A stretch of DNA of 64,000 nt from Aquibacillus rhizosphaerae (GTDB lineage: Bacteria; Bacillota; Bacilli; Bacillales; Amphibacillaceae): assembly GCF_030282825.1 (NCBI RefSeq), contig NZ_JASTZU010000041.1, positions 124,001-188,000 on the forward strand. The letters are read 5' to 3'. The notes under the pieces were generated by a model. It was given only the letters and a program-made list of their open reading frames with translations, had not been told where the DNA came from and did no database searches. Within the stretch, counting starts at the first letter, position 1. The number at the start of each line of letters is the position of its first letter. This document shows, piece by piece, positions 17,831 to 51,787 of the stretch. Position numbers and translations under genes: made by a program.

Positions 17831-18008
17831 ATAATAATCCACCTCTTTTAAGCTGTTTTCTAAAAATTCTTAACACAAACATGTTTTGCTATGATATAAT
17901 ACTTTTAATTTCTTGTATGAAAAGTAGTTGTAATAGTAGTTTGGAAGTATAATCATAATTATTAGTATGTCCAGGTTTTAATAATTTAAAATAAGCGAAT
18001 GATTACAA

Positions 18009-18171
18009 GAGGAGAGACTACTTTTGTGGCGCCGAAGGAGCAAGCAACTAATTGCGAATCTCTCAGGCAAAAAGACTTTTGTATGACGCAACTCTGGAGA
18101 ATGTTTACATCACTTGTAAACTACCCAAGAAGCAAGCCTATAAGACTAGGCCAAACTTTCTGGTTCAAGGA
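18009..18171 (+). promoter_or_regulatory. tandem glycine riboswitch
   Basis: Two aptamers lie in a row. Aptamer I (about 18009-18100) has GAGAG..., GCCGAAGGAGCAA and ATCTCTCAGGCAAAAAGAC ... AACTCTGGAGA. Aptamer II (about 18101-18171) has CCCAAGAAGCAAGC ... AAACTTTCTGGTTCAAGGACAG. These are the canonical conserved cores. The element precedes gcvT and ends at a terminator, so glycine binding should turn on the glycine cleavage genes. Confidence 0.96.
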
Positions 18172-18211: not shown

Positions 18212-18241
18212 ATGTTAAAAATCTATTTTTGGGGTGGGAAA

Positions 18242-46099: not shown

Positions 46100-47461
46100 A
46101 TGAACGATAAATATTTAACTGTAAGTGCACTTACAAGATATATGAAACGAAAGTTTGAATTAGATAAGCATTTAAAAGAAGTGTGGTTGAAAGGTGAAAT
46201 ATCAAACTTTAAACACCATAGTCGTGGTCATATGTATTTGACGATTAAAGATGATAATTCTAGAATTCAAGCAGTCATGTTTGCTGGGAATAATCGCAGT
46301 TTAAAATTCAAGCCGGAAAACGGGATGAACATATTAATTAAAGGTGAAGTAAGTATTTATGAACCACAAGGCCAATACCAGTTATATATTCAACAGATGG
46401 AGCCAGACGGGATTGGTGCTCTCTATCTTGCTTTTGAACAATTAAAACAGAAGTTGACTGCAGAGGGGTTATTTGATGAATCAAATAAAAAATCCATTCC
46501 TGAATATCCAACTCATATAGGGGTTGTAACTTCTCCTACAGGTGCAGCTGTACGTGATATCATTACTACAATTCGTCGCCGTTATCCAATAGTGAAAGTA
46601 ACTATTATACCTGTATTAGTCCAGGGGGATCAGGCTGCGTCATCCATTGTAAAAGCAATTCAGTTTGCCAATCGTTTGAAGACGTTTGATGTATTAATTG
46701 TTGGACGTGGTGGAGGATCTATTGAAGAACTGTGGAGTTTTAACGAAGAAATCGTAGCAAGATCCATTTCTGATTCCAGTATCCCAATTATATCTGCTGT
46801 AGGTCACGAGACAGACTTTACTATAAGTGATTTCAGCGCAGATATTAGAGCAGCAACCCCAACAGCTGCAGCGGAAATAGCAGTGCCTTCTCAATACGAA
46901 ATTAAAGACAGAATTTTAGCGTTTGAACGATCGCTTAAACGTTCCATCTCTGAACAAGTATCAAGGTCAAATGAACGGTTATTGAAACTGAAAAGGTCCT
47001 ATGCGTTTCGTTATCCAGAGCAATTAGTTAAACAAAAAGAACAGGAATTAGATAAAAATGTTGATCGTTTAACTAAAGCCCTGGTGCGTACACAAGAACA
47101 ACACCAGACCCAATGGATGTTTTTGCATAAACGATTAATGCAACAACACCCCGAGAGACAAATCAATCAATTGAATGAAAACATTAATCAATTAAAGTTA
47201 AGAAGTAAACGTGCATTTCAAGCAATATATAAAGATGAAGAAAAAAGATTTGCATCAACTCTTGAGAAACTTGCTTTATTAAATCCTTTAAACACAATGA
47301 AAAGAGGATATTCGATATCCTACTCCAAAGAAGGAAAAGTAGTTAACTCTATAGATCATGTGCAAGCTGGTGACCAAATAAAGGTGAATATTGTTGATGG
47401 CATATTGGATTGTCAAGTTTTAGATGTTGAGGAGGAGAAAACAGATGACAAAGAAAGATGA
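46100..47461 (+). CDS. xseA: exodeoxyribonuclease VII large subunit
   Basis: 453 aa. N-terminal OB-fold ([20 protein letters not shown]), the catalytic domain with [14 protein letters not shown] and [17 protein letters not shown], then a long coiled-coil region (about 270-400). Degrades single-stranded DNA with XseB. GGGTGTGTTTCG precedes the ATG. It overlaps xseB by 17 bp. Confidence 0.96.
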
Positions 47462-47678
47462 ACTATCTTTTGAAGAAGCGATGAAGAAATTAGAAGAAAT
47501 TGTTGATAAGTTAGAAGAAGGTGAAGTTCCGTTAGAAAAAGCTATCAATTATTACCAAGAAGGAATGAACTTGTCTAAGGTTTGTAGCGACAAGTTAACG
47601 AACGTCGAGAAGCAAATGGAACAAATTGTGAATGAGCAAGGTGACTTTCAAGCATTTTCAATTCAGGAGGAAGAATAG
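47445..47678 (+). CDS. xseB: exodeoxyribonuclease VII small subunit
   Basis: 77 aa, two helices: [20 protein letters not shown] is the family signature. Binds the XseA coiled coil. The ATG at 47445 follows GAGGAGGAGAAAACAG inside the end of xseA, indicating coupling. Confidence 0.96.
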
Positions 47679-48569
47679 GTGGAAAATACGAATACGTTAA
47701 CGGAGTATTTAACGGAACGGCAGAAGTTTGTTAACGATGAAATAACTAATTTGATAAAACAAATGGACGCACCACTTCAATTAAAAGATTCAATGTTATA
47801 TTCAATGGAAGCTGGTGGGAAAAGGTTACGCCCAATCTTAATGATGGCTAGCTGTGAATCGTACGGAGGAAATTATAAGTCCGTTATGACGATAGCGGTG
47901 GCACTAGAAATGATACATACATATTCATTAATTCATGATGATTTACCGGCAATGGATGATGATAATTTTCGTAGAGGAAAACCAACTAATCATCGTAAAT
48001 TTGACGAAGCAACAGCTATATTAGCTGGAGATGGACTACTTACACACAGTTTTACGGTCATATCTGAAGACAATCAATTAACATCAGATCAAAAGGTTTT
48101 TCTTATTCAAGAACTGGCTAATGCAAGTGGACCAACTGGTATGGTAGCAGGTCAAATCTTGGATATTGAGGGAGAAAAAGTTGAAACATCTTTAGAAGAC
48201 TTAGAAGAGATACATTTACTGAAAACAGGACAATTAATAAAGTTTGCAATTGTTAGCGGTGCCTATATTGGTGGGGCTTCAACACATCAACTGGAATCAA
48301 TAAATGATTTTGCTTATTACTTAGGTTTGATTTTCCAAGTGCAAGACGACATATTGGACGTTTCAGGTGATCAAGAATTAATGGGAAAACCTGTAGGTAG
48401 TGATGAAAATAATTTCAAGAGCACATACCCAAAATTGCTTGGCCTAGAAGGAGCAATTGAGCAAAAAGAAAAATATGTACAAAAAGCAAAAGAAGCTCTT
48501 AAATCTGCAGGAATTAAGAACTCACTTTTAGAAGAATTAACTGATTATTTGAGCAATCGCGATTATTAA
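47679..48569 (+). CDS. ispA: farnesyl/geranyl diphosphate synthase
   Basis: 296 aa trans-prenyltransferase: first Asp-rich motif HDDLPAMDDD, the GGKRLRP substrate site and the second Asp-rich motif QVQDDILD. Makes farnesyl diphosphate for undecaprenyl and menaquinone synthesis. GTG start directly after the xseB stop, with AGGAGGAAG. It stands before dxs with OLE and oapA between, as in B. halodurans. Confidence 0.95.
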   Translation: MENTNTLTEYLTERQKFVNDEITNLIKQMDAPLQLKDSMLYSMEAGGKRLRPILMMASCESYGGNYKSVMTIAVALEMIHTYSLIHDDLPAMDDDNFRRGKPTNHRKFDEATAILAGDGLLTHSFTVISEDNQLTSDQKVFLIQELANASGPTGMVAGQILDIEGEKVETSLEDLEEIHLLKTGQLIKFAIVSGAYIGGASTHQLESINDFAYYLGLIFQVQDDILDVSGDQELMGKPVGSDENNFKSTYPKLLGLEGAIEQKEKYVQKAKEALKSAGIKNSLLEELTDYLSNRDY

Positions 48570-48577
48570 CCGGGTGA

Positions 48578-48606
48578 TTGAGTAAACTGATTATCTGTGT
48601 TATATT
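48578..48606 (+). promoter_or_regulatory. sigma-A promoter of OLE RNA
   Basis: TTGAGT, a 17-base spacer and TATATT. The predicted start (about 48613-48618) coincides with the first base of the RNA closing stem. Confidence 0.7.
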
Positions 48607-48617
48607 ATTTATACATT

Positions 48618-49221
48618 AGGAATGGTGCAGTATTCTAGTCAGTCCTCCGTTTCTGAAGGCGGGCCTAAAAATCCGCCAAAGGGCACATCGATGAAGTTCC
48701 TTGTGCCGGCTTGAGGCGCCCAGCCTTGGGTCGGTGCTGGGAGTTAAGGTTGTAGGGCGATCCACAAAGGCATGTGGGCGAGGACCCTACTTCCGCGGAG
48801 GCCCATCTCTGTGGTGACTGCTTAGCCAAGGAGTTGCTATGGAATGGGGTATGAACCTACGTAATTGGGATGGGGAATCCTTGTTCGTAGCGTAGCCTGC
48901 CTTGAGTGGTGCTTGAGGGGATTATGGTCACAAGTGCATGAAGAAGATGGCCACTTCTTAAAGCGCTTTTCTGCCATATGAAATCAGCACTGCAAAAGAG
49001 GCTAGGAAACGGTTAAGGGCTGTTGAGGAAATCTCCTAGACTGTTCCAATGGACATTTATTAGGGATTATAGTGCGGACTAAGTGGTAATCCAGTCTAGC
49101 TGTTGGTAACAACGCTAAGATGGGTTTAAAGGGGAACCGCCAGAATGGCAACATTCGGTACCCATCTGGGAAAACCTACTGGACCTAAGCCGCAGTTTTT
49201 ACCTAATAAATGACCATTCCT
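48618..49221 (+). ncRNA. ole: OLE RNA (ornate large extremophilic RNA)
   Basis: About 604 nt of structured, GC-richer, non-coding sequence between ispA and oapA, exactly where OLE RNA lies in B. halodurans, and of the right length (~610 nt). AGGAATGGT (48618-48626) pairs perfectly with ACCATTCCT (49213-49221), closing the RNA; T-residues follow. The interior shows many local hairpins (e.g. GGCGGGCC...GGCGC, TCCGCGGAGGCCC). The RNA binds OapA at the membrane and is known for roles in cold, alcohol and Mg stress. Confidence 0.93.
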
Positions 49222-49260
49222 TTTTACATAGTAAAATATTTTCATATTTGGGGTAAAATA

Positions 49261-49839
49261 ATGTCTAAATCGCAATTACAAAAGTCGATAAAATTCAGTT
49301 TAGGTATTGCCGTTATCACGTTTGTGTTAGCGGCTATTTTTTCAGTAGTCTCCTCAGCATTATTAGGAGAAGTTATTTGGATTGCTGGATTACTAATTGT
49401 ATTTTTAATCGTATTTATTGGTGTTTTCTTTGATATGTTAGGAATAGCAGCTACTGCTGCAGATGAAGTTCCTTTCCATGCAATGGCAGCGGAGAGGGTA
49501 AGCGGTTCCAAACAAGCGATTATTATCGTGAGAAATGCTGACCGATTTGCCAGTTTTTGTAATGATGTGATTGGGGATATATCTGGTATTGTTAGTGGAA
49601 CTGCGTCAGCTATTGTTGTGCTTCAAGTAGCAAATGGGTTTGGATATGGAGATGGTTCCACGTTTCAAATCGTTGTATCTGTAATCCTAACGAGTTTTAT
49701 TGCTGCCTTAACTGTAGGTGGTAAAGCAATCGGTAAGTATCTGGCGATTCATGCTTCTACACAAATTATCTTTTTTGTAGGTAAAATGATTGCCTTCATA
49801 GAAGATAAATTTAAAATTAAGATATTGAAGAAAGATTAA
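49261..49839 (+). CDS. oapA: OapA, OLE-associated membrane protein
   Basis: 192 aa from the ATG at 49261 (GGGGTAAAATA upstream); an earlier in-frame ATG at 49210 lies inside the OLE closing stem and is rejected. Four membrane segments (about 10-30, 34-56, 106-126, 140-160). The central region FDMLGIAATAADEVPFHAMA and the DVIGD (DxxxD) motif are typical of this family. It recruits OLE RNA to the membrane, usually as a dimer. Immediately followed by dxs. Confidence 0.92.
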   Translation: MSKSQLQKSIKFSLGIAVITFVLAAIFSVVSSALLGEVIWIAGLLIVFLIVFIGVFFDMLGIAATAADEVPFHAMAAERVSGSKQAIIIVRNADRFASFCNDVIGDISGIVSGTASAIVVLQVANGFGYGDGSTFQIVVSVILTSFIAALTVGGKAIGKYLAIHASTQIIFFVGKMIAFIEDKFKIKILKKD

Positions 49840-49894
49840 ATTAAACGTAAATGAACAAACAGATAGATATTAAACTAAAAGGGGAGGAATCCCA

Positions 49895-51787
49895 ATGGAT
49901 CTTACCAGAATTAAAAATCCTTCGTTCTTAAAATCATTAACTAACGAAGAGTTGGAAGTTTTATCCTATACAATTAGACAATTTTTAATCGAGAAGTTAT
50001 CTGTTACAGGAGGGCATCTTGGAGCAAATTTAGGTGTAGTGGAATTAACGTTGGCATTGCATAAGAATTTTAATAGTCCGGAAGACAAATTAATATTCGA
50101 TGTCGGTCATCAGTCTTATATTCATAAAATGTTGACTGGGAGGTCTGGTCAATTTGAAACATTAAGAAAATTCAAAGGCTTATGCGGCTTCCCAAAAATG
50201 AGTGAAAGTGAACATGATGTTTGGGAAGCCGGGCATAGTTCTACTTCTTTATCAGCAGCAATGGGGATGACAATTGCTCGGGATATTAAAGGGGACAGTA
50301 ATTATATAGTTCCAATCATTGGTGATGGTGCTTTAACAGGTGGGATGGCACTAGAAGCATTAAACCATATTGGTCATGAAAAGAAGAATATTATCGTGAT
50401 ACTTAACGACAATGAAATGTCGATTGCTAACAATGTTGGAGCACTTCACAATGCTTTAGGTAGGATGAGAAGTGCAGGAAAGTACAATCGTGTTAAAGAT
50501 GAGTTGGAATGGTTATTGAAAAAGATTCCGGCAGTTGGTGGAAAACTTGCTCACACGGCTGAGCGTGTCAAAGATAGTATGAAATATTTCATGATACCCG
50601 GCATGCTTTTTGAAGAGTTTGGTTTCACGTATTATGGACCAGTGGATGGACATGATTTTAGCGCGCTTCAAGAAAATTTACAGTATGCAAAAAAGACGGA
50701 TGGACCAGTGCTTATTCATGTTATTACGCAAAAAGGAAAAGGGTATCGACCAGCAGAAGCAGATATAAAAGATAAATGGCATGGTGTAGGACCTTATAAA
50801 ATAGATTCTGGGGAAAAAATCACACCATTAAATGCTCCACCTGCTTGGAGCTCTGTTGTAAGTGGTACATTACAAAAGATTGCTAGGGAAGATAAACGTC
50901 TAACTGTTGTCACTCCTGCTATGATTTTAGGTTCAAAATTAGACAAGTTTCAATTAGAATTCCCTGATCGATTATTTGATGTGGGTATTGCTGAACAACA
51001 TGCTACAACGATGTCAGCTGGAATGGCAACGCAAGGATTGAAGCCATTTTTAGCTATTTATTCAACTTTTCTACAGCGTGCGTATGATCAATTGCTACAT
51101 GATGTATGTAGACAAAACTTGAATGTTGCATTTGGTATTGATCGTTCCGGTTTAGTAGGGGCGGATGGTGAAACACACCAAGGCGTATATGATATTTCAT
51201 TTTTAAGACATATGCCTAACATGGTAATTATGATGCCTAAAGATGAAAACGAGTGTCAGCACATGGTAAATACAGCAATTCAGTATGATGATGGTCCAAT
51301 TGCTGTTAGGTTTGCACGGGGAAATGCACTAGGTGTTCCAATGGATGATATATTGTCTACAATTCCTATTGGATCTTGGGAAGTTTTAGAAGAAGGAACA
51401 GACGCTGTTATATTAACGTTTGGCACGACAATAGGAATGGCCTTAGAAGCTAGTGAGCAATTAAAAAAACAAGGTTATTCTGTAAGAGTAGTGAACGCAC
51501 GTTTTATTAAGCCATTAGATGAGGACATGCTACATGACATAATGTCTAGTGATATGCCAATACTTACACTTGAAGAAACTGTCTTACAAGGTGGATTTGG
51601 TAGTGCTATTTTAGAATTTGCAGAAGCTAATCTATATACCCTGAATAATATTCGCAGAATGGGCATTCCTGATCATTTTATTGAGCATGGTAAAGTAGAA
51701 GAACTCTTAGAAGAAATTGGTTTAACAAAAGAGATTGTAGTTGAAACTGTTCAACAAATGCTTCCAAGTAAACAAAAGAGGACATGA
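49895..51787 (+). CDS. dxs: 1-deoxy-D-xylulose-5-phosphate synthase
   Basis: 630 aa thiamine-diphosphate enzyme, the first step of the MEP isoprenoid pathway. It has the [15 protein letters not shown] site, the TPP motif [14 protein letters not shown]...NDNEMSI, a pyrimidine domain with GIAEQHA, and a transketolase C-domain. GGGGAGGAATCCCA before the ATG. It feeds ispA upstream. Confidence 0.97.

Follow-up and report, generated by a model that had tools for sequence, protein, structure and literature searches.

The region between ispA and dxs of Aquibacillus rhizosphaerae raises the question of whether it holds a complete OLE RNA-OapA locus, as the original prediction proposed for positions 48570-49839 of the window, that is, of the whole 64,000-nt stretch of DNA that was analysed (contig NZ_JASTZU010000041.1, positions 124,001-188,000, forward strand). 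The prediction described a structured block of about 604 nt between the two genes and suggested a search with the Rfam OLE covariance model. In this search, RF01071 covered positions 48606-49233 on the plus strand over the whole of its length (1-616 of 616), with 545.7 bits and an E-value of 2.9e-157 against a gathering score of 50. The match was the single one in the organism's own draft genome (4,690,508 bases in 63 contigs, all of them searched), and its score ranked fourth among the 108 matches in the host family. Standard pairs were found at 152 of the 158 mapped Rfam position pairs. The P7, P8 and P9 regions, named here by their order along the published model, were all there, identifying the RNA as the full-length type and not as one of the shortened variants 1 or 2 described in PMC11332333. 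The protein genes beside it were as follows:

47679-48569, plus strand: ispA (farnesyl diphosphate synthase), the upstream neighbour; NF045485, 404 bits, cut-off 275
49261-49839, plus strand: oapA, a 192-aa membrane protein with a DxxxD motif (D102, D106); from relatives, motif and fold
49895-51787, plus strand: dxs, the downstream neighbour; TIGR00204, 922.5 bits, cut-off 465.95

The wider gene order was folD, xseA, a small ORF, ispA, OLE, oapA, dxs, tlyA, argR, a 580-aa ORF, and then spoIVB and spo0A; placed by position, the small ORF (47424-47678) occupies the site of xseB and the 580-aa ORF that of recN. This order agrees with PMC12265935, where OLE genes are described as clustering with isoprenoid-synthesis, DNA-repair, translation and sporulation genes. 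The locus resembles the studied example of RF01071, the OLE of H. halodurans, in its full-length match, its kind of gene neighbourhood, its conserved loops, the adjacent oapA and an own promoter, and it is a typical representative of a class already described rather than the first of a new one. We put at roughly 0.93 the probability of the whole reading, namely that an OLE RNA gene, complete and intact, lies here together with oapA, and that their products would form a stress-tuning membrane ribonucleoprotein. Our literature search found no paper naming OLE RNA together with Gracilibacillus or Aquibacillus. Clean, intact OLE loci are useful because OLE ranks among the largest bacterial RNAs that still lack a known chemical function. 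The expectation that each new OLE sequence helps covariation models now carries little weight, because 8,585 non-redundant OLE sequences have already been used in print; by itself this locus adds little, and its worth lies in the comparison across the genomes of its family, described below.

Relatives of OapA were found in at least 548 stretches, the best 80 being kept. An nhmmer match to OLE lay just upstream, on the plus strand, in all 80 of these best relatives, and Rfam confirmed OLE in 20 of the 20 kept stretches that were tested. Across 81 aligned OLE sequences, 180 pairs were 92.5% paired, with double changes at 122 of the 180, as compared with 39-46% pairing for slid strands. The elements of the RNA were located as follows:

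48618-48626, plus strand: closing stem P1, 5' arm AGGAATGGT; perfect 9 bp with the 3' arm
48640-48653, plus strand: P3.1 and P3, 5' strand, from covariation; 14 nt in 79 of 81 sequences
48658-48677, plus strand: P4 hairpin with the A-rich loop CCTAAAAA; AAAAA in 81 of 81, stem 100% paired
48681-48696, plus strand: J4a/5 GGGCACATCGATGAAG, the 5' part of the published OapC kink turn; cytosine 48689 invariant in 81
48697-48743, plus strand: P5/P5.1 hairpin, loop GCCCA; loop identical in 81 of 81
48748-48794, plus strand: P6/P6.1 (the published bS21 site), loop AAGGCA complementary to L5.1; GGCA in 81 of 81
48932-48968, plus strand: apical P9 hairpin with the palindromic loop GGCC (48949-48952); GGCC in 81 of 81
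49006-49022, plus strand: P3 and P3.1, 3' strand, from covariation; 17 nt in 73 of 81 sequences, 16-19 in the rest
49097-49167, plus strand: 3' domain hairpins around the OapB site known from print (P12.2/P13), the site being assigned by position; three helices with 94-99% pairing and numerous double changes
49213-49221, plus strand: closing stem P1, 3' arm ACCATTCCT; perfect 9 bp with the 5' arm, the two arms enclosing 604 nt

The perfect 9-bp closing stem noticed in the original prediction was present, and compensatory change was seen within it: P1 was 97.5% paired in the 81 sequences, with double changes at five of its nine pairs. The bare stem is mildly unusual, as 9 Watson-Crick pairs between the flanks were reached by 39 of 1000 dinucleotide-shuffle pairs, and for this reason it was rejected as sole evidence. 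The same shuffles are the one point in favour of a chance or mis-called structured region; given the E-value of the Rfam match, which already refutes this explanation, and the strong covariation, its probability is negligible. The structured block between ispA and dxs is therefore real, as shown by the full-length match and by compensatory change throughout the alignment.

The alignment also gave information on individual helices. P3, which is unpaired in the Rfam structure, was 97.7% paired, with double changes at seven of seven pairs. The outer four pairs of P3.1 were 100% paired, three of them with double changes; the inner two were 67.3% paired, the sixth and last pair being broken in 53 of the 81 sequences. 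The P3 stem has been proposed to cross the membrane (PMC12265935). The P3.1-P3 strands were near-constant in length, whereas the apical P9 hairpin varied from 29 to 42 nt across the set; P5 and P6 were equally constant, however, so that the constant length of P3 alone is not proof of a membrane role.

All of the loops with a published role in dimer contacts were kept, each in every sequence of the set: L4 AAAAA, L5.1 GCCCA, L6.1 GGCA and L9 GGCC. The A-rich loop of P4 has been described as a dimer bridge (PMC12286853), and the GGCC loop of P9 as a dimer kissing loop (PMC12286853 and PMC12265935, which treat the roles of the dimer loops). Published variation of the L9 palindrome runs from GGCC to GAUC or AGCU, and neither variant was seen in the 81-sequence set. 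The variable middle of P9 aligned poorly, and the low pairing of its helices 15 and 16 (48-54%) probably reflects misalignment. In the OapC kink turn, the cytosine C85 of H. halodurans, reported to be essential there (PMC9723947), corresponds to the invariant position 48689 when matched through the primers printed in PMC12054373.

P6 differed from that of the H. halodurans OLE in one respect: the CCTCCT mimic of the 16S anti-Shine-Dalgarno (anti-SD) sequence was absent from the A. rhizosphaerae P6, and it was present in 3 of the 81 sequences compared. P6 kept its three inner G-C pairs in 81 of 81; by numbering, these include the pairs described as important for bS21 binding in PMC12054373, where mutants in which the anti-SD mimic was altered and pairing retained were still able to bind bS21. 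The outer-middle part of P6 (helix 7) was 79.6% paired, three of its nine pairs being broken in 23 to 69 of the 81 sequences, and this poor pairing appears in line with the alternative folds published for this part of the RNA.

A probable promoter was located directly upstream of the Rfam match:

48578-48606, plus strand: probable sigma-A promoter of OLE (TTGAGT, 17 nt, TATATT, with TG before the -10); by pattern, 9 of 12 matches, and by conservation

Sigma-A-type sites found by pattern in the region numbered 5 against 4.2 expected, so that the pattern alone was dropped as evidence and only its conservation was counted. The extended -10 motif TGnTAnnnT was present 5' of OLE in 79 of the 79 anchored sequences, with about 12% expected in shuffles; the other two of the 81 (L054 and L062) had no anchor and were left out of the count, and the motif was visible by eye in both. 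In a lenient test that allowed three spacers, the best -35 match reached at least 4 of 6 positions in 61 of the 79. An own promoter of ole has already been published for H. halodurans (PMC9723947), and we therefore do not present it as a new finding. Transcription would most likely begin a few bases past the -10 box ending at 48606, and the 5' end of the RNA would then lie downstream of 48570, where the predicted locus begins.

The structured block might also be thought of as a cis-regulatory leader of oapA or dxs rather than a free RNA, as it lies directly 5' of oapA on the same strand and a U-rich stretch follows P1. However, a match over all 616 OLE positions and the conserved own promoter are hardly expected of a leader, a scan of positions 48400-50000 gave no terminator-like hairpin (1.1 expected by chance), and the OLE of H. 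halodurans has been reported to be an abundant free RNA about 630 nt long (PMC9723947). The leader was rejected on the full OLE match and the result of the hairpin scan, and we consider it highly improbable. A free OLE RNA is thus the reading adopted below.

A gap of 27 nt separated the 3' end of the Rfam match from the ATG of oapA. A longer ORF of 209 aa, starting at 49210, would add 17 codons that overlap the 3' end of OLE. These codons are not conserved, since a stop was found within 16 codons upstream of the corresponding start place in 68 of the 80 relatives (the best 80 of at least 548), and the ATG at 49261, giving the 192-aa form, is therefore the most likely start. The protein was 64-86% identical to the 80 kept relatives with OLE just upstream, again the best 80 of at least 548, the best of them sharing 86%. 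The DxxxD motif that had been noticed in the protein next to OLE was found in one copy, DVIGD at residues 102-106, together with long hydrophobic stretches, and it was invariant in 38 aligned OapA proteins (37 of the 80 kept relatives and that of the window). In H. halodurans, the OapA mutant D100A/D104A (PM1) is reported to have stress defects worse than those of the deletion (PMC9723947). An AlphaFold2 model of middling confidence (mean pLDDT 74.6, pTM 0.64) showed four long helices (27-35 residues each), a further one of 19 residues and two that were short, and the long helices and hydrophobic stretches would be compatible with four spans.

For the suggested search with an OapA HMM, no ready-made model of OapA was present in the libraries searched: the NCBIfam search gave nothing convincing and no model naming OapA, and in Pfam the CNNM domain matched at 19.6 bits, below its cut-off of 28.4, with no other Pfam domain found. 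Because the libraries searched have no such model, the identity of OapA rests on its relatives, the DxxxD motif and the fold. With these and the Rfam match, the reading of the locus as a complete OLE RNA-OapA pair was borne out. The model aligned best to CNNM/CorB structures, with a Z score of 12.5 (7m1t; rmsd 2.1 over 128 residues) against 8.1 for the best non-CNNM row, a value to be read with the aligner's caveat that, among helical bundles, a Z under about 13 may reflect no more than a shared arrangement. Foldseek also ranked CNNM structures first, none of them at E <= 0.001. A CNNM-like fold is thus predicted for OapA. The sub-threshold Pfam match agrees with PMC11332333, where, in a CNNM search, the OapA cluster came closest after that of MpfA.

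Compared with the OapA of known OLE loci, the protein was alike in the gene adjoining OLE, the four long model helices, the invariant DxxxD and the predicted CNNM-like fold, and nothing notable was different in its 192 aa. It shares with the CNNM magnesium transporters MpfA, CorC and CorB the predicted fold of the membrane part and the weak CNNM match. Unlike them, it had no CBS or CorC_HlyC domain in the Pfam search and carries DxxxD, a motif that CNNM domains are described as lacking in PMC11332333. Identification as an MpfA was rejected, as only the sub-threshold CNNM match was found from the set of CNNM, CBS and CorC_HlyC.

Partner proteins were found elsewhere in the genome, where the original prediction had proposed to look for oapB and oapC. 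OapB is encoded directly upstream of infA as a 111-aa protein matching the PDB chain 7k9b_A, "OLE-associated protein B", at E = 4.5e-32. An L7Ae-family protein (65.9 bits) is encoded between ORFs that read by eye as RpoC and ribosomal protein S12, and a second L7Ae protein follows an ORF that reads by eye as NusA. The place between RpoC and S12 is the expected site of ybxF (OapC), and the first protein would fit the OapC type. An OapC-type L7Ae protein is present in the ybxF place, its tentative assignment as YbxF and not as the paralogue YlxQ being made by gene order. bS21 was present in one copy.

With the sequence, the conservation of its structure, the gene order, the partner genes and the co-occurrence with OapA observed here, a working model can be drawn for expression, binding, the dimer, membrane location and a stress role by inference from work on H. 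halodurans and the cryo-EM of other OLE RNAs. Transcription of OLE would most likely begin at the conserved sigma-A promoter in front of it, with read-through from ispA as a probable second source. The RNA would then fold and dimerise through the conserved loops in P4, P5.1/P6.1 and P9. OapA would hold it at the cell membrane, with OapB, OapC and bS21 bound, and the particle would tune the response to stresses such as cold, alcohols and high magnesium, probably through the CNNM-like fold of OapA.

The distribution of the locus was examined in 154 genomes of the host family, each at least 90% complete, by an OLE search with stricter filters, under which some weak matches were lost. OLE was present in 108 and OapA in the same 108, both being absent from the other 46, which repeats within one family the near-complete mutual inclusion of OLE and OapA published in PMC11332333. 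MpfA-type proteins were counted as CorC_HlyC matches, a count that may take in further proteins carrying this domain; one of the 108 genomes, G075, carries only remnants and was left out, leaving 107 OLE genomes. These had a mean of 1.49 matches and a median of 1 (ten genomes with none, 59 with one, 23 with two, eight with three, five with four and two with five), as compared with a mean of 2.78, a median of 3 and no genome at zero among the 46 without OLE. The difference gave p 3e-12, a value that overstates independence because the genomes are related. In two genera that include genomes of both kinds, the means with and without OLE were 2.17 (6 genomes) and 2.95 (21 genomes; p 0.054) in one, and 1.33 (3 genomes) and 3.0 (8 genomes; p 0.014) in the other. 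The published OLE-MpfA anticorrelation (PMC11332333) therefore holds in the host family. According to the same source, OLE genomes typically carry no more than one MpfA; in contrast, 38 of the 107 OLE genomes of this family had two or more.

The A. rhizosphaerae genome encodes three full CNNM-CBS-CorC (MpfA-type) proteins (L002, L003 and L004), a high number for an OLE carrier: at least three CorC_HlyC matches were found in just 15 of the 107 OLE genomes, this one included, and G012, of the same genus, had five. Such numbers could mean that the locus, although its sequence is intact, has become functionally redundant or is near decay, with MpfA-type proteins having taken over, the more so as loss is known in the family (the 46 genomes without OLE and OapA, and the decayed copies of G075). 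Against this, the OLE score ranks fourth of 108 with standard pairs at 152 of the 158 mapped positions, and the frame of oapA is open and 86% identical to the best relative; we consider redundancy very unlikely and retain the reading of an intact OLE locus. Three full MpfA-type proteins beside OLE are not predicted by a simple replacement of MpfA by OLE. A more speculative idea, which we regard as doubtful, is that OLE-OapA is more than an RNA-based substitute for MpfA: in the genus that includes Aquibacillus koreensis, and in some of its relatives, the particle would work beside three to five MpfA-type proteins, the second, unlinked DxxxD OapA of a few genomes (see below) might form mixed or OLE-free complexes, and the full covariation of P3 with its near-constant 5' strand would fit a membrane-thickness constraint. 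The 108 genomes with OLE and OapA and the 46 with neither, differing in MpfA-type counts, offer natural test pairs, some within one genus, for the question of what OLE does beyond MpfA.

The remnants in G075 (L089:3297-4261) consisted of 394 nt of OLE (133.8 bits) and, next to it, what is left of oapA, interrupted by stop codons, dxs being missing there: OLE and oapA are decaying together. In seven genomes (G031, G134, G135, G136, G137, G138 and G140), a second OapA-like gene of 38-48% identity was found away from OLE, those of G134 and G137 containing stops. DxxxD was kept in three of the three second proteins aligned (L092:2604-3215, L093:2614-3207 and L096:2424-3020), which were 42-44% identical to the OapA of the window. 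No OLE was found within at least 2.4 kb on each side of these paralogues in the four stretches searched (L092, L093, L094 and L096); the same search did find OLE in L095, beside a broken oapA, and the remnant in L089. The former is from the one-contig genome G106 (L095:1036-1621, minus strand), where the oapA frame break beside a good OLE (508.6 bits) may be a mutation or a sequencing error.

A search of phages with OLE gave no match at E 1e-5. OLE-like DNA was found on a 504-kb plasmid of Pusillibacter faecalis (NZ_AP023421.1:200851-201348), the sole plasmid record matched, covering 36% of the query at 77.3% identity. Elsewhere in the window, an ordinary glycine riboswitch aptamer (71 bits) lies at positions 17999-18088, just 5' of a 377-aa ORF at 18212.
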